Part shown: positions 6,930 through 44,996 of the stretch, one piece after another
How positions within the stretch are numbered: position 1 is the stretch's first letter
How the letters are laid out: each line of letters starts with the position of its first letter
From: Porphyromonas pasteri
GTDB lineage: Bacteria; Bacteroidota; Bacteroidia; Bacteroidales; Porphyromonadaceae
Assembly (NCBI RefSeq): GCF_014647755.1
Contig: NZ_BMPU01000002.1
Coordinates: 310,001-374,000 of the forward strand
Length of the DNA stretch: 64,000 nucleotides
Direction: 5' to 3'
The notes under the pieces: generated by a model
Told to the model about the DNA's origin: nothing
Seen by the model: the letters and a program-made list of their open reading frames with translations, nothing else
Database searches by the model: none
Position numbers and translations under genes: made by a program

Positions 6930-7160
6930 GCGCATTTACAGTAAACAGCCGTGATAAGACGCAGAAAGATGGTGCTTCGTCTCTCATGGAAAAGCCTGCG
7001 GAGCTAGCGGGCGTAGAGTGTGAGCACCTATAGGATAACGTGAGAGGGGCACGGGTTGTTCTACCACTATAAAATATCGTGCGCGCACATCGCACGCACG
7101 CGAGGGAAATACCCCCTCTGTAAGTGCTTGCAGTATAGGACTGTGCGGAGGGGTGATTCC

Positions 7161-7262
7161 GACCAGTACTGGTCGGCTTAGTGACCAGTACTGGTCGCGC
7201 CGTGGAGTAGTACTGGTTACTCATGCTGACCAGTACTGCTTTGACTGGTGACCAGTACTGGT
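7161..7262. repeat. Array of five ACC-N6-GGT palindromes, 22-23 bp apart
   Basis: Five units centred at 7167/8, 7189/90, 7211/2, 7234/5 and 7256/7 share the core AGTACT. The first two are perfect 14-bp palindromes (GACCAGTACTGGTC); the third and fourth have lost one arm in part. Spacing is 22, 22, 23, 22. The palindromes have no loop, so they suit a dimeric DNA-binding protein better than RNA hairpins. The array adjoins the 225-bp element that follows. A long minus-strand frame through this repeat is not believable as a gene. Confidence 0.85.
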
Positions 7263-7283
7263 TGCTTTTCCCCCTTCGCAAAG

Positions 7284-7508
7284 GTTGTTGCTCCGCATAG
7301 GGATAAAAGTTGCGGACGAGTGGCAGATAAGTTTGGACTACGTACGTGGCTCTAATAGCTTCGTACGTGGATCTTTGGGTTTGCGTGCGTGGTCTTTAAG
7401 ACTACGTGCGTAGATAGAAGAAAACCACTACGTGAAAGCGCTTTTTTCTTCACGAGAAGGACACTTTTTCCTCCGCTGGATAAGAGGAATACTCGCGATA
7501 AGGCGAAG
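7284..7508 (-). repeat. 225-bp dispersed intergenic element, copy 1 (inverted)
   Basis: The reverse complement of this stretch aligns without gaps over its whole length to 28350-28574, with about 26 mismatches by hand count (about 88% identity). It contains A-tracts (GAAGAAAAAAGCG), a degenerate CGT/AGTGG unit and the four-unit ACGT array at 7338-7413. At the same end in both copies an ACC-N6-GGT array follows. No terminal inverted repeats, target duplications or coding potential are visible. Confidence 0.85.
7338..7413 (-). repeat. Four-unit ACGT/ACGT array (21-22-21 spacing), copy A
   Basis: Units centred at 7343/4, 7364/5, 7386/7 and 7407/8 follow the form C(C/T)ACGT-ACGTAG with some drift, for example tttgcgtgcgtgg. 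The array spans exactly 76 bp, as do the four others in the window. A weaker fifth unit (ACT/ACGTGA) lies 22 bp further on at 7429/30. Confidence 0.85.
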
Positions 7509-7876
7509 GGCTTGCCTGATCACTTCGGAGAGGCATATCGGGGAGCTGGGCGTGCGATGCCTTAGTACGCTAAATAGAGGATAGGACTCGCGGCAACAGG
7601 CTCTCGTAGAGGCTCCGCGGGAGCGTGCGTGCTGCTATTGTGGCGAGGGGTATGGGAAGGGCTTCGCCGTAGGTGGAAGTGTGGGGTTTAGGAAGGGGCG
7701 GTATGCGCACCTCTATAATTGTGTGGTCGGGGCGATTTCGAGGGTTGATTTTTAGAAATATGGGAGGTGGGGAGTTGCGTGAATCTGTGTTTTGAGGTCC
7801 GCTCTTTACTGAAAAGTGTGTCAAGTTGCCTGCGGAATACTCAAAATTTTAGTCAAACGTCCATGTGTTTGACTGA

Positions 7877-28349: not shown

Positions 28350-28574
28350 CTTCGCCTTATCACAAGTATTCCTCTTATTCAGCGGAGAAAAAAGCATCGT
28401 TCTCGTGAAGAAAAAAGCGTCTTCCCGTAGTGGTATTCTTCTATCTATGCACGTAGTCTTAAAGACCAGGCACGTCAATCCAAATATCCCCGTACGTAGA
28501 TATTAGGACCACGTACGTAGTCCAAACTTATCTGCTACTCGTCCACAACTTTTATACCTACGCGGAGCAACAAC
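28350..28574 (+). repeat. 225-bp dispersed intergenic element, copy 2
   Basis: Same length as, and about 88% identical by hand alignment to, the reverse complement of 7284-7508. In order it has cttcgccttatc, two A-tracts 23 bp apart (aaaaaa at 28388 and 28411), a degenerate unit CCCGT/AGTGG at 28428/9, the four-unit ACGT array, then tccaaacttatctg and gcggagcaacaac. An ACC-N6-GGT array starts 20 bases further on. No reading frame is plausible. Confidence 0.85.
28445..28520 (+). repeat. Four-unit ACGT/ACGT array (21-22-21 spacing), copy B
   Basis: Units centred at 28450/1, 28471/2, 28493/4 and 28514/5. The last (CCACGTACGTAG) is nearly perfect; the second (CCAGGCACGTCA) is worn. Confidence 0.85.
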
Positions 28575-28594: not shown

Positions 28595-28719
28595 GACCAG
28601 TAGTGGTCGATGCGCTGACCACTATAGGTTACTACTACGAACCTATAGTGGTCGACTCGTGAACCACTATTGGTTTGCACCCCACACCAATAGTGGTTCG
28701 AGCGTAGACGAGTATTGGT
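28595..28719. repeat. Array of six ACC-N6-GGT units, 22-23 bp apart
   Basis: Centres at 28601/2, 28623/4, 28646/7, 28668/9, 28691/2 and 28713/4. The outer ACC and GGT are kept while the six inner bases vary (AGTAGT, ACTATA, TATAGT, ACTATT, AATAGT); the last unit has a damaged left arm. In the copy at 7161 the inner bases are all AGTACT. Confidence 0.85.
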
Positions 28720-28992: not shown

Positions 28993-29069
28993 GGCTCCGT
29001 AGCTCAACTGAATAGAGCATCTGACTACGGATCAGAAGGTTACAGGTTTGAATCCTGTCGGGGTCACCA
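28993..29069 (+). tRNA. tRNA-Arg (ACG), first copy
   Basis: A 77-base cloverleaf with anticodon ACG in the loop CTACGGA between TCTGA and TCAGA, T-loop TTTGAAT, and an encoded CCA end. The acceptor stem has two wobble pairs (G2-T71, T4-G69). Confidence 0.95.
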
Positions 29070-29104: not shown

Positions 29105-29181
29105 GGCTCCGTAGCTCAACTGAATAGAGCATCTGACTACGGATCAGAAGGTTACAGGTTTGAATCCTGTCGGGGTCACCA
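29105..29181 (+). tRNA. tRNA-Arg (ACG), second copy
   Basis: Identical to the copy at 28993 over all 77 bases and separated from it by 35 bases; the two are probably cut from one transcript. Confidence 0.95.
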
Positions 29182-34234: not shown

Positions 34235-34450
34235 CGATAATATATAAGGAGTTCGCCCAGCGTTACATCACCGTGTCCGAAAGCTCGGTGCTGGGCACTC
34301 TACGACCGCTTGCTCTTCTCTCCCTGTCTTATGCGGGCGACACCTCCGAAGCGTGTGCGCCTCCCTCCACAAGAAAGATCCTTCTCCAGCGCAAGAAAAA
34401 GGGCCGTCTGAGCTGAGAAAAGCTTGCCAAATCACTGGAAATAGTTTGAT

Positions 34451-34526
34451 CCACGTACCTGGTCTTATCATCTACGTACGTAGTCCATAGGATCATCGTG
34501 CGTAGACCTTAAATCCACGTACGTAG
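34451..34526 (+). repeat. Four-unit ACGT/ACGT array (21-22-21 spacing), copy D
   Basis: Units centred at 34456/7, 34477/8, 34499/500 and 34520/1. Upstream (about 34375-34440) A-tracts and agcgcaagaaaaag/gagaaaagc resemble the 225-bp element in the same order, so this is probably a more diverged copy. No ACC-N6-GGT array follows. Confidence 0.85.
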
Positions 34527-34619
34527 ACAAAGAAATAGCTCGCTTGTTTCGACAGAGTAGCACTACGGATCGGGAGCTTTTGCACCGGCTCTTCGAGCGA
34601 ATGCTTGTAGTGAAATGGA

Positions 34620-42609: not shown

Positions 42610-42667
42610 GCTTTCCATCCCCTTTACGGCGCCCCTTTGCTTTCTTCTCTAAGGGGAGGTGGTGCGA

Positions 42668-42768
42668 ACCTATATTGGTCGGCGGGCGAACCAATATAGG
42701 TCAAGTATATCCACCTATATAGCTTAGCATATCGACCTATATAGCTTCACCCGCCGAACAATATAGGT
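42668..42768. repeat. Array of five ACC-N6-GGT units, 22-23 bp apart, without a 225-bp element
   Basis: Centres at 42673/4, 42695/6, 42718/9, 42740/1 and 42762/3 (spacing 22, 23, 22, 22). Inner hexamers are TATATT, AATATA, TATATA, TATATA and AATATA. Two units end GCT instead of GGT. The array follows cbiA directly and no ACGT array is nearby. Confidence 0.85.
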
Positions 42769-42838
42769 CCATATCACTACCCTCTAATGGGGGGGGCATG
42801 CGACTTCCGATAGAGAGGGGAGATCCCTCGTTACTTCT

Positions 42839-42992: not shown

Positions 42993-44996
42993 ATGAGCAC
43001 TGCACTTCATAAAGAATACCGCCCGCTGACGGCTGAAGAGATCAGCGTCCTGCGTGAGCACGCCAACTCCGCCGACGACTGGAGCCAGGTCTGGGTCAAG
43101 GAAGGCTTCGTCCCCCGCTACATCCTCAACACGCACTTCTCGGGCTGGGTCCGCCTGGGGCTCTTCGAGAAGACCTTTGACCTACCTGGGGGTATCTCAA
43201 AGCACTCTGGACTCTACTACACCTACCTGCACAATGTCGAGGTCGGCGACAACTGCTGCATCGAGCATGTCAATAACTATATCGCCAACTACACCATCGG
43301 CGAAGAGTCCTTCATCAGCAACGTCGATACTATCCTCGTCGACGGCGAGACGACCTTCGGCAATGGCGTCGAGGTCTCCGTCCTCAATGAGACGGGCGGG
43401 CGTGAGGTGCTGAGCTACGACCAGCTCTCAGCGCACGAAGCCTACTTCATGGCGATCTACCGCCACCGTCCTGCGCTCATCTCGGAGCTGCGCCACCTCA
43501 TCTGGGGCTATATCGATGGCTTGCGCTCCGCCCACGGCACGATCGGTGCCCATGCGCATATCACGGATGTGGGGAATATCACGAATGTGAAGATCGGCCC
43601 CTACGCCAGCATCATCGGCACGCGTCGCCTCTACAACGGGAGTATCAATAGCGTGAAGGAAGCGCCTGTCAGCCTTGGCTACAGCGTCATCTGTACGGAC
43701 TTCATCATCTCCTCGGGCTCAAGCGTGCAGAGTGGCACGGCGCTCTCCCGCTGCTTCATCGGGCAGGCGTGTACACTCGCTCATGGCTATTCCGCCTCGG
43801 ACTCGCTCTTCTTCAGCAACTGCCACGAGGAGAATGGCGAGGCGTGTGCGATCTTCGCTGGACCCTTCACCGTGACGCACCACAAGTCTACGCTACTCAT
43901 CGCCAGCCAGTTCTCCTTCATGAACGCTGGCTCGGGCTCGAATCAGAGCAACCACATGTACAAGCTCGGCCCCATCCATCAGGGCATCATGGAGCGCGGT
44001 GCGAAGACTTCGTCCGACTCCTACATCCTCTGGCCCGCGCGTATCGGTGCCTTCTCGCTCGTCATGGGGCGTCACACCACGCACCCCGACCTATCGAACC
44101 TCCCCTTCTCCTACCTCATCGAGTCGTGCGATACGACCTTCCTCATCCCTGGGGTCAACCTCAAGAGTGTGGGGACGATCCGCGATGCGCAGAAGTGGCC
44201 CCGCCGTGATGCGCGCACCGACCCGCACCGCCTTGACCAGATCAACTACAACCTCCTGAGCCCCTATACCATCCAGAAGATGCTCAACGGGCGCACCATC
44301 CTCACCGAGCTAAGGCGTGTCGCTGGCGCCACCTCCGAGATCTACTCCTACCAGAGTGCAAAGATCAAGGCCTCCTCGCTCCGTAAGGGGATCCACTACT
44401 ACGAGCTGGCGATCCATAAGTTCCTCGGCAACTCGCTCATCAAGCGTCTCGAGGGTGTCGCCTGCACCTCTATCGAAGTCGTGCGCCAAGCCCTACAGCC
44501 CCGCACATCCATCGGACACGGGGATTGGGTCGACCTCTCGGGCCTCATCGCACCGAAGGCCGAGATCCTTCGCATCATCGAGGACATCGAGATGCGCCGC
44601 ATCGAGGCTATCGGTGAGCTACAGCAGCGCCTTGCCGACCTGCATCTCCACTACTACGAGTACGAATGGACGTGGGCGTATGATAAGATCCAGGAGTTCT
44701 ATGGTATCGACCTTACGGAGGTGACGGCAGAGCAGATCGCCGAACTCGTCGAGCGCTGGCGTAGCTCGGTCGTCGAGCTGGACCGCGAGCTCTATGCCGA
44801 TGCGAAGAAGGAATTCTCCCTCTCGGCGATGACGGGCTTCGGTGCCGATGGCGATGAGCGTGTGCAGGCGCAGGACTTCGAGGAGGTCCGTGGCGACTTC
44901 GACAGCAATACCTATGTGAAGTCCATCCTCCAGCATATCGAGGAGAAGAGTGCTCTCGGCGAAGAGCTACTCGGTCGCCTCGCACCGCTGCGCTAA
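42993..44996 (+). CDS. DUF4954 family protein (beta-helix, unknown role)
   Basis: The 667-residue cytoplasmic protein begins MSTALHKEYRPLTAEE. Residues 70-400 hold many short hexapeptide-like beta-helix rungs (VGDNCCIEHVNNYIANYTIG, then IGPYASIIGTRRLYNG), as in left-handed beta-helix acyl- and nucleotidyl-transferases. The C-terminal third is helical (residues about 420-660) and Glu-rich. This matches the DUF4954 family of Bacteroidetes, which has no known function; a sugar-nucleotide or acyltransferase role would be a guess. It has its own promoter and terminator. Confidence 0.8.
   Translation: MSTALHKEYRPLTAEEISVLREHANSADDWSQVWVKEGFVPRYILNTHFSGWVRLGLFEKTFDLPGGISKHSGLYYTYLHNVEVGDNCCIEHVNNYIANYTIGEESFISNVDTILVDGETTFGNGVEVSVLNETGGREVLSYDQLSAHEAYFMAIYRHRPALISELRHLIWGYIDGLRSAHGTIGAHAHITDVGNITNVKIGPYASIIGTRRLYNGSINSVKEAPVSLGYSVICTDFIISSGSSVQSGTALSRCFIGQACTLAHGYSASDSLFFSNCHEENGEACAIFAGPFTVTHHKSTLLIASQFSFMNAGSGSNQSNHMYKLGPIHQGIMERGAKTSSDSYILWPARIGAFSLVMGRHTTHPDLSNLPFSYLIESCDTTFLIPGVNLKSVGTIRDAQKWPRRDARTDPHRLDQINYNLLSPYTIQKMLNGRTILTELRRVAGATSEIYSYQSAKIKASSLRKGIHYYELAIHKFLGNSLIKRLEGVACTSIEVVRQALQPRTSIGHGDWVDLSGLIAPKAEILRIIEDIEMRRIEAIGELQQRLADLHLHYYEYEWTWAYDKIQEFYGIDLTEVTAEQIAELVERWRSSVVELDRELYADAKKEFSLSAMTGFGADGDERVQAQDFEEVRGDFDSNTYVKSILQHIEEKSALGEELLGRLAPLR

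Follow-up and report, generated by a model that had tools for sequence, protein, structure and literature searches.

Dispersed palindrome arrays of fixed pitch beside a non-autonomous IS5-type element in Porphyromonas pasteri

Introduction

REP and REPIN sequences are dispersed palindromes mobilised by a Y1 (RAYT) transposase, CRISPR arrays consist of repeats of about 21-48 bp that alternate with unique spacers of about the same length and are accompanied by cas genes, and plasmid iterons comprise about five sites at a spacing of about 22 bp. The arrays described below resemble REP sequences in being dispersed palindromes, CRISPR in having regular repeats with spacers, and iterons in having about five sites at about 22 bp. 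They differ from all three in that the unit itself is a palindrome, the spacers are 10-11 bp long, about 100 chromosomal places are occupied, and the word changes between species.

Systems of the Noc/SlmA type have a cognate DNA-binding protein and sites that are depleted at the terminus. For Noc, about 70 palindromic sites are described (PMC4331003). Noc and SlmA sites are, like the arrays here, short palindromes scattered over the chromosome, but they are described as separate and discrete, whereas here four or five units lie at each place, with a fixed pitch and a changing word. Noc is the nearest functional analogy for the arrays, which is not a family assignment.

In P. gingivalis, BrickBuilt is a minisatellite within an IS5-type MITE, with tandem 23-nt repeats and 19 copies, and the main text describing it never uses the word "palindrome" (PMC4596501). 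It shares with the present locus its dispersed and intergenic location, IS5-type ends and tandem repeats. A palindrome forms the centre of its unit, AGAYCATARTATCCTCTCRTRTG, which is seen in the relative G025 as an array of pitch 23, fitting the array pattern. Nevertheless, BrickBuilt has 19 copies against about 100 here, and its repeats are enclosed between a leader and a tail, whereas here most arrays are solitary and have five units. According to Table 2 of the same paper, ISPg4 ends in GAGACTGTTGCA ... CGCAACAGTCTC, and the ends of the MITE reported here match both ISPg4 and MITEPgRS (MITE464), with GAGACTGTTGCA ... CGCAACAGTCTC or TGCAACGGTCTC. MITEPgRS is described there as holding 41-nt repeats, unlike the element here, and the likeness concerns the ends. 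We found no description of fixed-pitch palindrome arrays of such kind among open-access titles and abstract openings, subscription journals lying mostly outside the search, and the fixed-pitch, free-word class was not found in the literature searched, which was mostly open-access.

Results

A pair of inverted copies belongs to a family of about 100

The window, i.e. the whole stretch of 64,000 nucleotides analysed (C2:310001-374000), lies in a draft genome (G000) of 2,166,795 bases in 9 unordered contigs. It contains the following features.

7144..7281, no strand: GTAC-class array of five palindromes with inverted flanks, ACCAGTACTGGT-like (match of profile R1, C2:317144-317281, both strands)
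7162, 7184, 7206, 7229 and 7251, no strand: units of the GTAC-class array, read from the sequence
7282..7603, plus strand: copy 1 of the IS5-type MITE, full length (alignment of about 100 copies, end tables)
7282 (left end, AGGTTGTTGC) and 7603 (last base of the right end, CGGCAACAGGCTC), plus strand: ends of MITE copy 1 (end tables)
7283/7284..7508, plus strand: MITE core, the 225-bp element of the original prediction (blastn, motif scan, alignment)
7338..7438, plus strand: ACGTACGT-type array within the MITE core, five units in 21-24-bp steps, the fifth weak (partly by eye)
28350..28574, minus strand: core of MITE copy 2, the tail being absent (26 of 225 mismatches to copy 1, unlike sequence beyond)
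28596..28719, no strand: six-unit ACC-N6-GGT array with mixed words and a pitch of 22-23, beside MITE copy 2 (sequence reading)
34405..34530 (approximate), no strand: diverged solo ACGTACGT-type array (word-blind scans)
42649..42787, no strand: TATA-class array of five palindromes, without MITE (match of profile R1, C2:352649-352787)

Two 225-bp copies had been predicted to align end to end in inverted orientation with about 26 mismatches, and we counted exactly 26 in 225, without gaps, between the reverse complement of 7284-7508 and 28350-28574. The ACGT-type array with a weak fifth unit is likewise present; in the ACGTACGT-type array of the core, the centres at 7344, 7365 and 7408 were computed and the other two units were placed by eye. 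The window ORF list has no gene inside the 225-bp element, as had been claimed, and the two-part composite, this element plus a separate ACC-N6-GGT array, is borne out. The second array does lie on the same side of both copies, but it is not a fixed part of the element, since such arrays stand alone at many other places.

The genome search proposed with the original prediction, run as a blastn of 7161-7508 (225-bp core included) against the own genome, gave at least 42 rows, at least 40 of which represent the core, counting the query itself, with identities of 89-100% (best 40 of 194 candidates). With up to 3 mismatches allowed, a 23-base core motif has 109 sites and its reversed control none, which confirms the proposed dispersal. 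The genome carries about 100 MITE copies; 100 rows were aligned, 95 of them distinct after removal of repeats. The core had no blastn match in 60 relatives, nor did a 20-base core pattern match in a wider contig search from which the own genome may be left out. In the window, Rfam matched nothing besides tRNAs; two tandem tRNA-Arg (acg) genes, apparently identical, lie at 28993-29069 and 29105-29181.

The 225-bp stretch is very probably the body of a MITE

An alignment of all copies, also proposed earlier as a way to define the ends, was made with the 100 rows and revealed common ends. Conservation runs from AGGTTGTTGCTCCG at the left, past 7508 and over about 95 more bases, to CGGCAACAGTCTC, giving a full length of about 321 bp. 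The originally proposed extent of 225 bp thus holds for the conserved core, but the element continues beyond 7508 for these further conserved bases (7509-7603), which as a query had at least 40 matches in the own genome (best 40 of 79 candidates). The right end is CGGCAACAGTCTC-like and readable in 58 of the 95 distinct copies. The left end still reads GAGACTGTTGC in L114, L141 and L155, is one base off in L130 and L132, and has drifted to AGGTTGTTGC in most copies.

The element had been described as lacking target duplications. Exact 5-bp repeats just outside the ends do occur, in a minority: 6 of the 57 copies with both ends carry one (1.5 in shuffled pairs), including 3 of the 5 with near-intact ends (L114, L130, L155), and 51 of the 57 have none. 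These counts come from a table of 24 offset/length combinations, in which other readings show a comparably modest excess, a 4-bp one at another offset being about equal (6 vs 1.7).

DDE_Tnp_1 has three matches in the own genome. Two of them, L191 and L192, are open frames with GAGACCATTGC ends, and the third has two stops and no GAGACCATTGC end; the transposase of L191, the only one scanned, has DUF772 and DDE domains. The terminal inverted repeats of the MITE are like those of the resident IS, the intact IS ends differing at 2 of 11 bases. In the own genome we found no transposase gene bounded by exact GAGACTGTTGC ends; the intact IS copies end in GAGACCATTGC. The element has many copies, as expected of MITE-type dispersal, and the window ORF list places no transposase gene inside it. 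Common IS5-type ends and terminal repeats, without a transposase gene, indicate a non-autonomous IS5-type element (MITE), and the 225-bp stretch is very probably its body. The earlier statement that the element has no terminal repeats and is not a standard MITE does not hold, since IS5-type terminal repeats lie at its true ends. An IS5-type transposase would move the MITE in trans, and this part of the finding is ordinary transposon biology.

We also observed a second MITE-like module of about 130-150 bp, TGAGACCATTGCGCAAG ... CTTGCGCAATGGTCTCA, with ends like those of the resident IS, to the left of the array at L005, L006, L008, L014, L015, L020, L053 and L054.

ACC-N6-GGT arrays are independent intergenic elements

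The own genome has 200 strict ACC-N6-GGT pairs at a distance of 22 bp, compared with one for the reversed control. At the loci around these pairs, the arrays prove to be independent elements, each in unique intergenic surroundings; a typical array has five 12-bp palindromes at a 22-23-bp pitch, enclosed by inverted G/A-rich flanks. Among the loci read, 121 five-slot arrays were counted with a template of 22- and 23-bp steps; 10 are tied to the MITE and the 111 others are distinct, 64 belonging to a TATA class (ACCTATATAGGT-like) and 47 to a GTAC class (ACCAGTACTGGT). A possible sixth unit is seen in 41 of the 111, which leaves 70 clean pentads, and a template-free chain count gave 3 to 9 slots per array, with five as the mode (33 of 79). 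A profile built from 21 pentads had at least 156 matches in the own genome, both strands counted (best 150 of 869 candidates).

Once oriented, 46 of the 47 GTAC pentads have exactly one 23-bp step, in the second or third interval, and 46 fit one frame when turned alike. Their flanks carry AGGGGGnAAAAgcA at one end and its complement at the other (inverted), and the information fades about 20 bp outside. With units of 12 bp and partly conserved spacers of 10-11 bp, the arrays do not have the repeat and spacer layout of CRISPR.

None of the 111 arrays is overlapped by a gene called with our own simple gene finder. After removal of 24 arrays without a called gene on one side and of 13 duplicates, 74 remained, with 49 tandem, 20 divergent and 5 convergent gene pairs as neighbours. 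Array positions relative to gene ends (79 five-prime, 50 three-prime) resemble the window baseline of 20 to 16, and the orientation of GTAC arrays is not clearly related to the flanking genes (35 same, 51 opposite). A further array word, approximately AAACGAATAGTCGTTTG, was seen beside ACC arrays in L205, L191, L016 and L051, and at C2:187087-215269 TATA and GTAC pentads are paired, about 200 bp apart, four times within 30 kb.

The composite arises where MITE or IS copies meet arrays

At least two ACC-type units lie within 130 bp to the left in 43 of the 87 MITE copies whose left end is readable. On the right, one or more ACC-type units accompany 33 of the 57 copies in which both ends are present, and 18 of the 57 have units on both sides. 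Many MITE copies have in common a left array that is built of AGCTATATAGCT words and has similar spacers; in a sub-lineage of the MITE this array seems to travel with the element. An intact IS and several MITE copies sit inside ACC-N6-GGT arrays, having inserted into their units; in L191, as judged by eye, the IS splits an array unit (...GACCTATAT, IS, TATATAGCT...) and is flanked by a 5-bp TATAT repeat. The composite look is that of the MITE and the related IS lying in or next to an independent, dispersed five-palindrome array. A BrickBuilt-like layout, i.e. repeats bounded by IS5-type ends, does not describe most pentads, which are solo and have no such ends; the left arrays common to many MITE copies, and nothing else here, come nearest to it.

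Arrays with the same pitch and other words occur in the genus

We scanned for at least three similar palindromes of any word, with even or odd centres, at any pitch of 13-40 bp. In 972,762 bases from 20 same-genus relatives this gave 15 arrays, with pitches of 22 bp (10 arrays), 23 bp (2), 21 bp (1), 26 bp (1) and 34 bp (1), overlapping hits having been reduced to the longest and then to the pitch nearest 22, a slight bias toward 22. One Markov-2 shuffle of the relatives' DNA plus the window gave none. The 13 arrays at 21-23 bp come from G009 (4), G025 (3), G011 (2), G014 (2), G006 (1) and G012 (1), where stretches of G009, G021, G025 and G010 had partly been chosen to cover profile hits and one of the 13, L287, was known beforehand. 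Their words differ (AAACGTCTAGACGTTT, CAAACTATATAGTTTG, AAACGTATACGTTT, GAAACTGGAGTTTC, ACCTAC-N-GTAGGT), some being AT-rich and weak (L289 at 13915, L290, L297). The two arrays outside this pitch look CRISPR-like (L320) and coding-like (L299) by eye. No array at 21-23 bp was found in 14 of the 20 relatives, several of them with little sequence scanned. The similarity filter is conservative, as it misses the window arrays at 7162 and 28596 as well as L327; a scan without word similarity gives hits at many pitches, the shuffled control included. Across words, the common feature is a pitch of about two helical turns, the palindrome length ranging from about 12 to 18 bp.

Searches tied to the word reach less far. 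Against 26 genus genomes, the array profile had weak matches in G025 (11), G021 (5), G010 (2) and G009 (1) and no match in the remaining 21 genus relatives, G014 among them. Strict ACC-N6-GGT pairs at 22 bp number 1-5 in 7 of 60 relatives and are absent from the other 53.

G014 is the closest relative by the single protein compared (DUF4954, 86% identity), and its arrays surfaced only through its own word. When up to 3 mismatches are allowed, this 13-nt word forms 362 adjacent pairs at a distance of 23 bp, where the control has 1, and one outer pair has 89 sites, some sharing one array (control 0). Of 36 arrays read, 29 have four slots, 4 have five and 3 have three, and their G-run/A-run flanks are similar by eye. 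The TATA-class array at 42649-42787 lies upstream of a DUF4954 gene (42993-44996), and G014 has a five-unit array upstream of the same gene; the loci of this gene in 20 other relatives showed no array upstream when searched for even-centred palindromes. Matches (at least 45% identity) to the 64 genes beside the 36 G014 arrays were found for 11 of 164 array-flanking genes and for 5 of 106 controls, two of these five being duplicates of flanking genes. Ten of the 11 have the array on the same gene end in G014, with ten of its 36 arrays involved. Orthologous array positions are nevertheless not convincingly above chance, because about one fifth of large gaps may hold an array (estimated from 3 of 17 in the window).

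Outside the genus, word-blind scans found no array in 100,000 bases of E. coli K-12 or in 102,427 bases of three order-level relatives, and none at 21-23 bp in 180,000 bases of three family-level relatives, where L327 appeared under looser scans only. Among 80 Bacteroidales-type loci (612,878 bases), one array has a pitch of 22 (L478) and one of 36. L478, in a locus titled uncultured Bacteroides, consists of seven units at a 22-bp pitch with the core CACGCGTG. In the order-level relative G047, a genome 61% complete, we counted five ACC-N6-GGT pairs at a distance of 22 bp, against none in the control; a word-blind check for at least three units in its loci L177, L184, L187 and L189 found a weak array in L187 only. 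Three array patterns had no match in viral contigs.

Folding and covariation

Folding as RNA predicts every one of the 46 oriented GTAC and the 25 TATA pentads to be more stable than its shuffles (mean z about -8, 20 shuffles each), which is not independent evidence, because the repeated palindromes alone would largely give it. In the TATA class, spacers 1 and 4 are reverse complements of each other in 7 of 25 arrays, against a mean of 1.0 after shuffling (p 0.0015; 0.0135 with partners randomly flipped). No covariation was found in spacers 2/3, in the flanks or in the whole GTAC class. On alignment A1, in which both classes are mixed, the hairpin register is 74.6% paired with a covariation score of 0.301, compared to 0.10-0.13 for other slides.

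Discussion

The question raised by this finding is the purpose of a hundred-copy array of fixed 22-base pitch for which related species use different words. The arrays might be double-stranded platforms for protein binding, a putative role to which we give somewhat less than an even chance. The pitch is kept across species while word and length change, which favours such a platform: 13 of the 15 word-blind arrays lie at 21-23 bp with different words, and the orientation of GTAC arrays is not clearly related to genes. About five protein dimers would sit on each array, on one face of the helix, and the platforms would bear a loose resemblance to the palindromic sites at which the nucleoid-occlusion proteins Noc and SlmA bind, except that those are scattered and these clustered. 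Against this role, several unrelated array words occur in one genome, so that one protein could not bind all of them, the spacer 1/4 covariation of the TATA class is not predicted by a site model, and 14 of the 20 relatives sampled lack an array at 21-23 bp in the DNA scanned. The combined reading, a MITE beside protein-binding arrays, is equally tentative, because it cannot exceed its weaker half, the platform.

In an extended and rather doubtful form of this proposal, the genus would carry an unnamed class of elements with four or five palindromes at a 22-23-bp pitch and about a hundred copies per genome in the two species counted. The word would turn over while the geometry and the G/A-rich inverted flanks persist, each platform would be occupied by some five dimers of a DNA-binding protein that evolves fast and serves the whole chromosome, for instance in organising the nucleoid or controlling division, and the platforms would be landing sites exploited by IS5-type elements.

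An equal rival to the platform, with the same less-than-even standing, is that the arrays are selfish hairpin repeats without host function that spread like REP/REPIN or MITE, a copying enzyme keeping them regular and each word family being its own lineage. The arrays are indeed dispersed and intergenic, have inverted-repeat ends, occur as families of copies of a word and host IS and MITE insertions; long hairpins are predicted for all those tested, and the word is completely different between sister species. However, we identified neither an enzyme that would copy the arrays nor a target duplication beside them, the stability z stems largely from the repeated palindromes, and hairpin formation does not explain why the pitch stays at two turns while the word and its length are free.

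It is improbable that the arrays act as RNA, being transcribed into long hairpins that control neighbours or terminate transcription. The strong predicted hairpins and the spacer 1/4 covariation of the TATA class fit this role, but the latter could also be produced by template switching at quasi-palindromes, covariation is not seen in spacers 2/3, in the flanks or in the GTAC class, the GTAC arrays have no consistent orientation to genes, and Rfam matches only tRNAs in the window. Slightly less probable still are plain minisatellites generated by slippage or template switching, without dispersal of the unit or function. Unit number does vary in the left arrays of the MITE, and BrickBuilt repeat numbers are described as varying between strains (PMC4596501), but free arrays mostly have five units here and four in 29 of the 36 G014 arrays, one frame fits 46 of the 47 GTAC arrays, and the flanks are common to different loci. 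That the window holds the only two copies, as one larger segmental duplication, an outcome named with the original prediction, can be dismissed, as about 100 copies are dispersed in the genome and the flanking DNA and array words differ between the two.

If the arrays bind protein, as under the platform proposal, they would constitute a chromosome-scale system in Bacteroidales, and the turnover of the word between sister species would offer a natural series in which to follow how protein and DNA co-evolve. As selfish elements, they would be a class of dispersed repeats, characterised by its geometry more than its sequence, that escapes sequence searches.

The DUF4954 protein is 86% identical to that of G014, but its identity to those of other members of the genus is about 53% or less, and Bacteroides-type proteins reach 66-67% (best segment); these identities may reflect exchange or replacement of the gene. 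Three contigs have a core copy of the MITE no more than about 650 bases from their start (C2:597-619, C3:592-614, C6:627-649); such copies may break assemblies, and it looks as if repeats had stopped assembly there.
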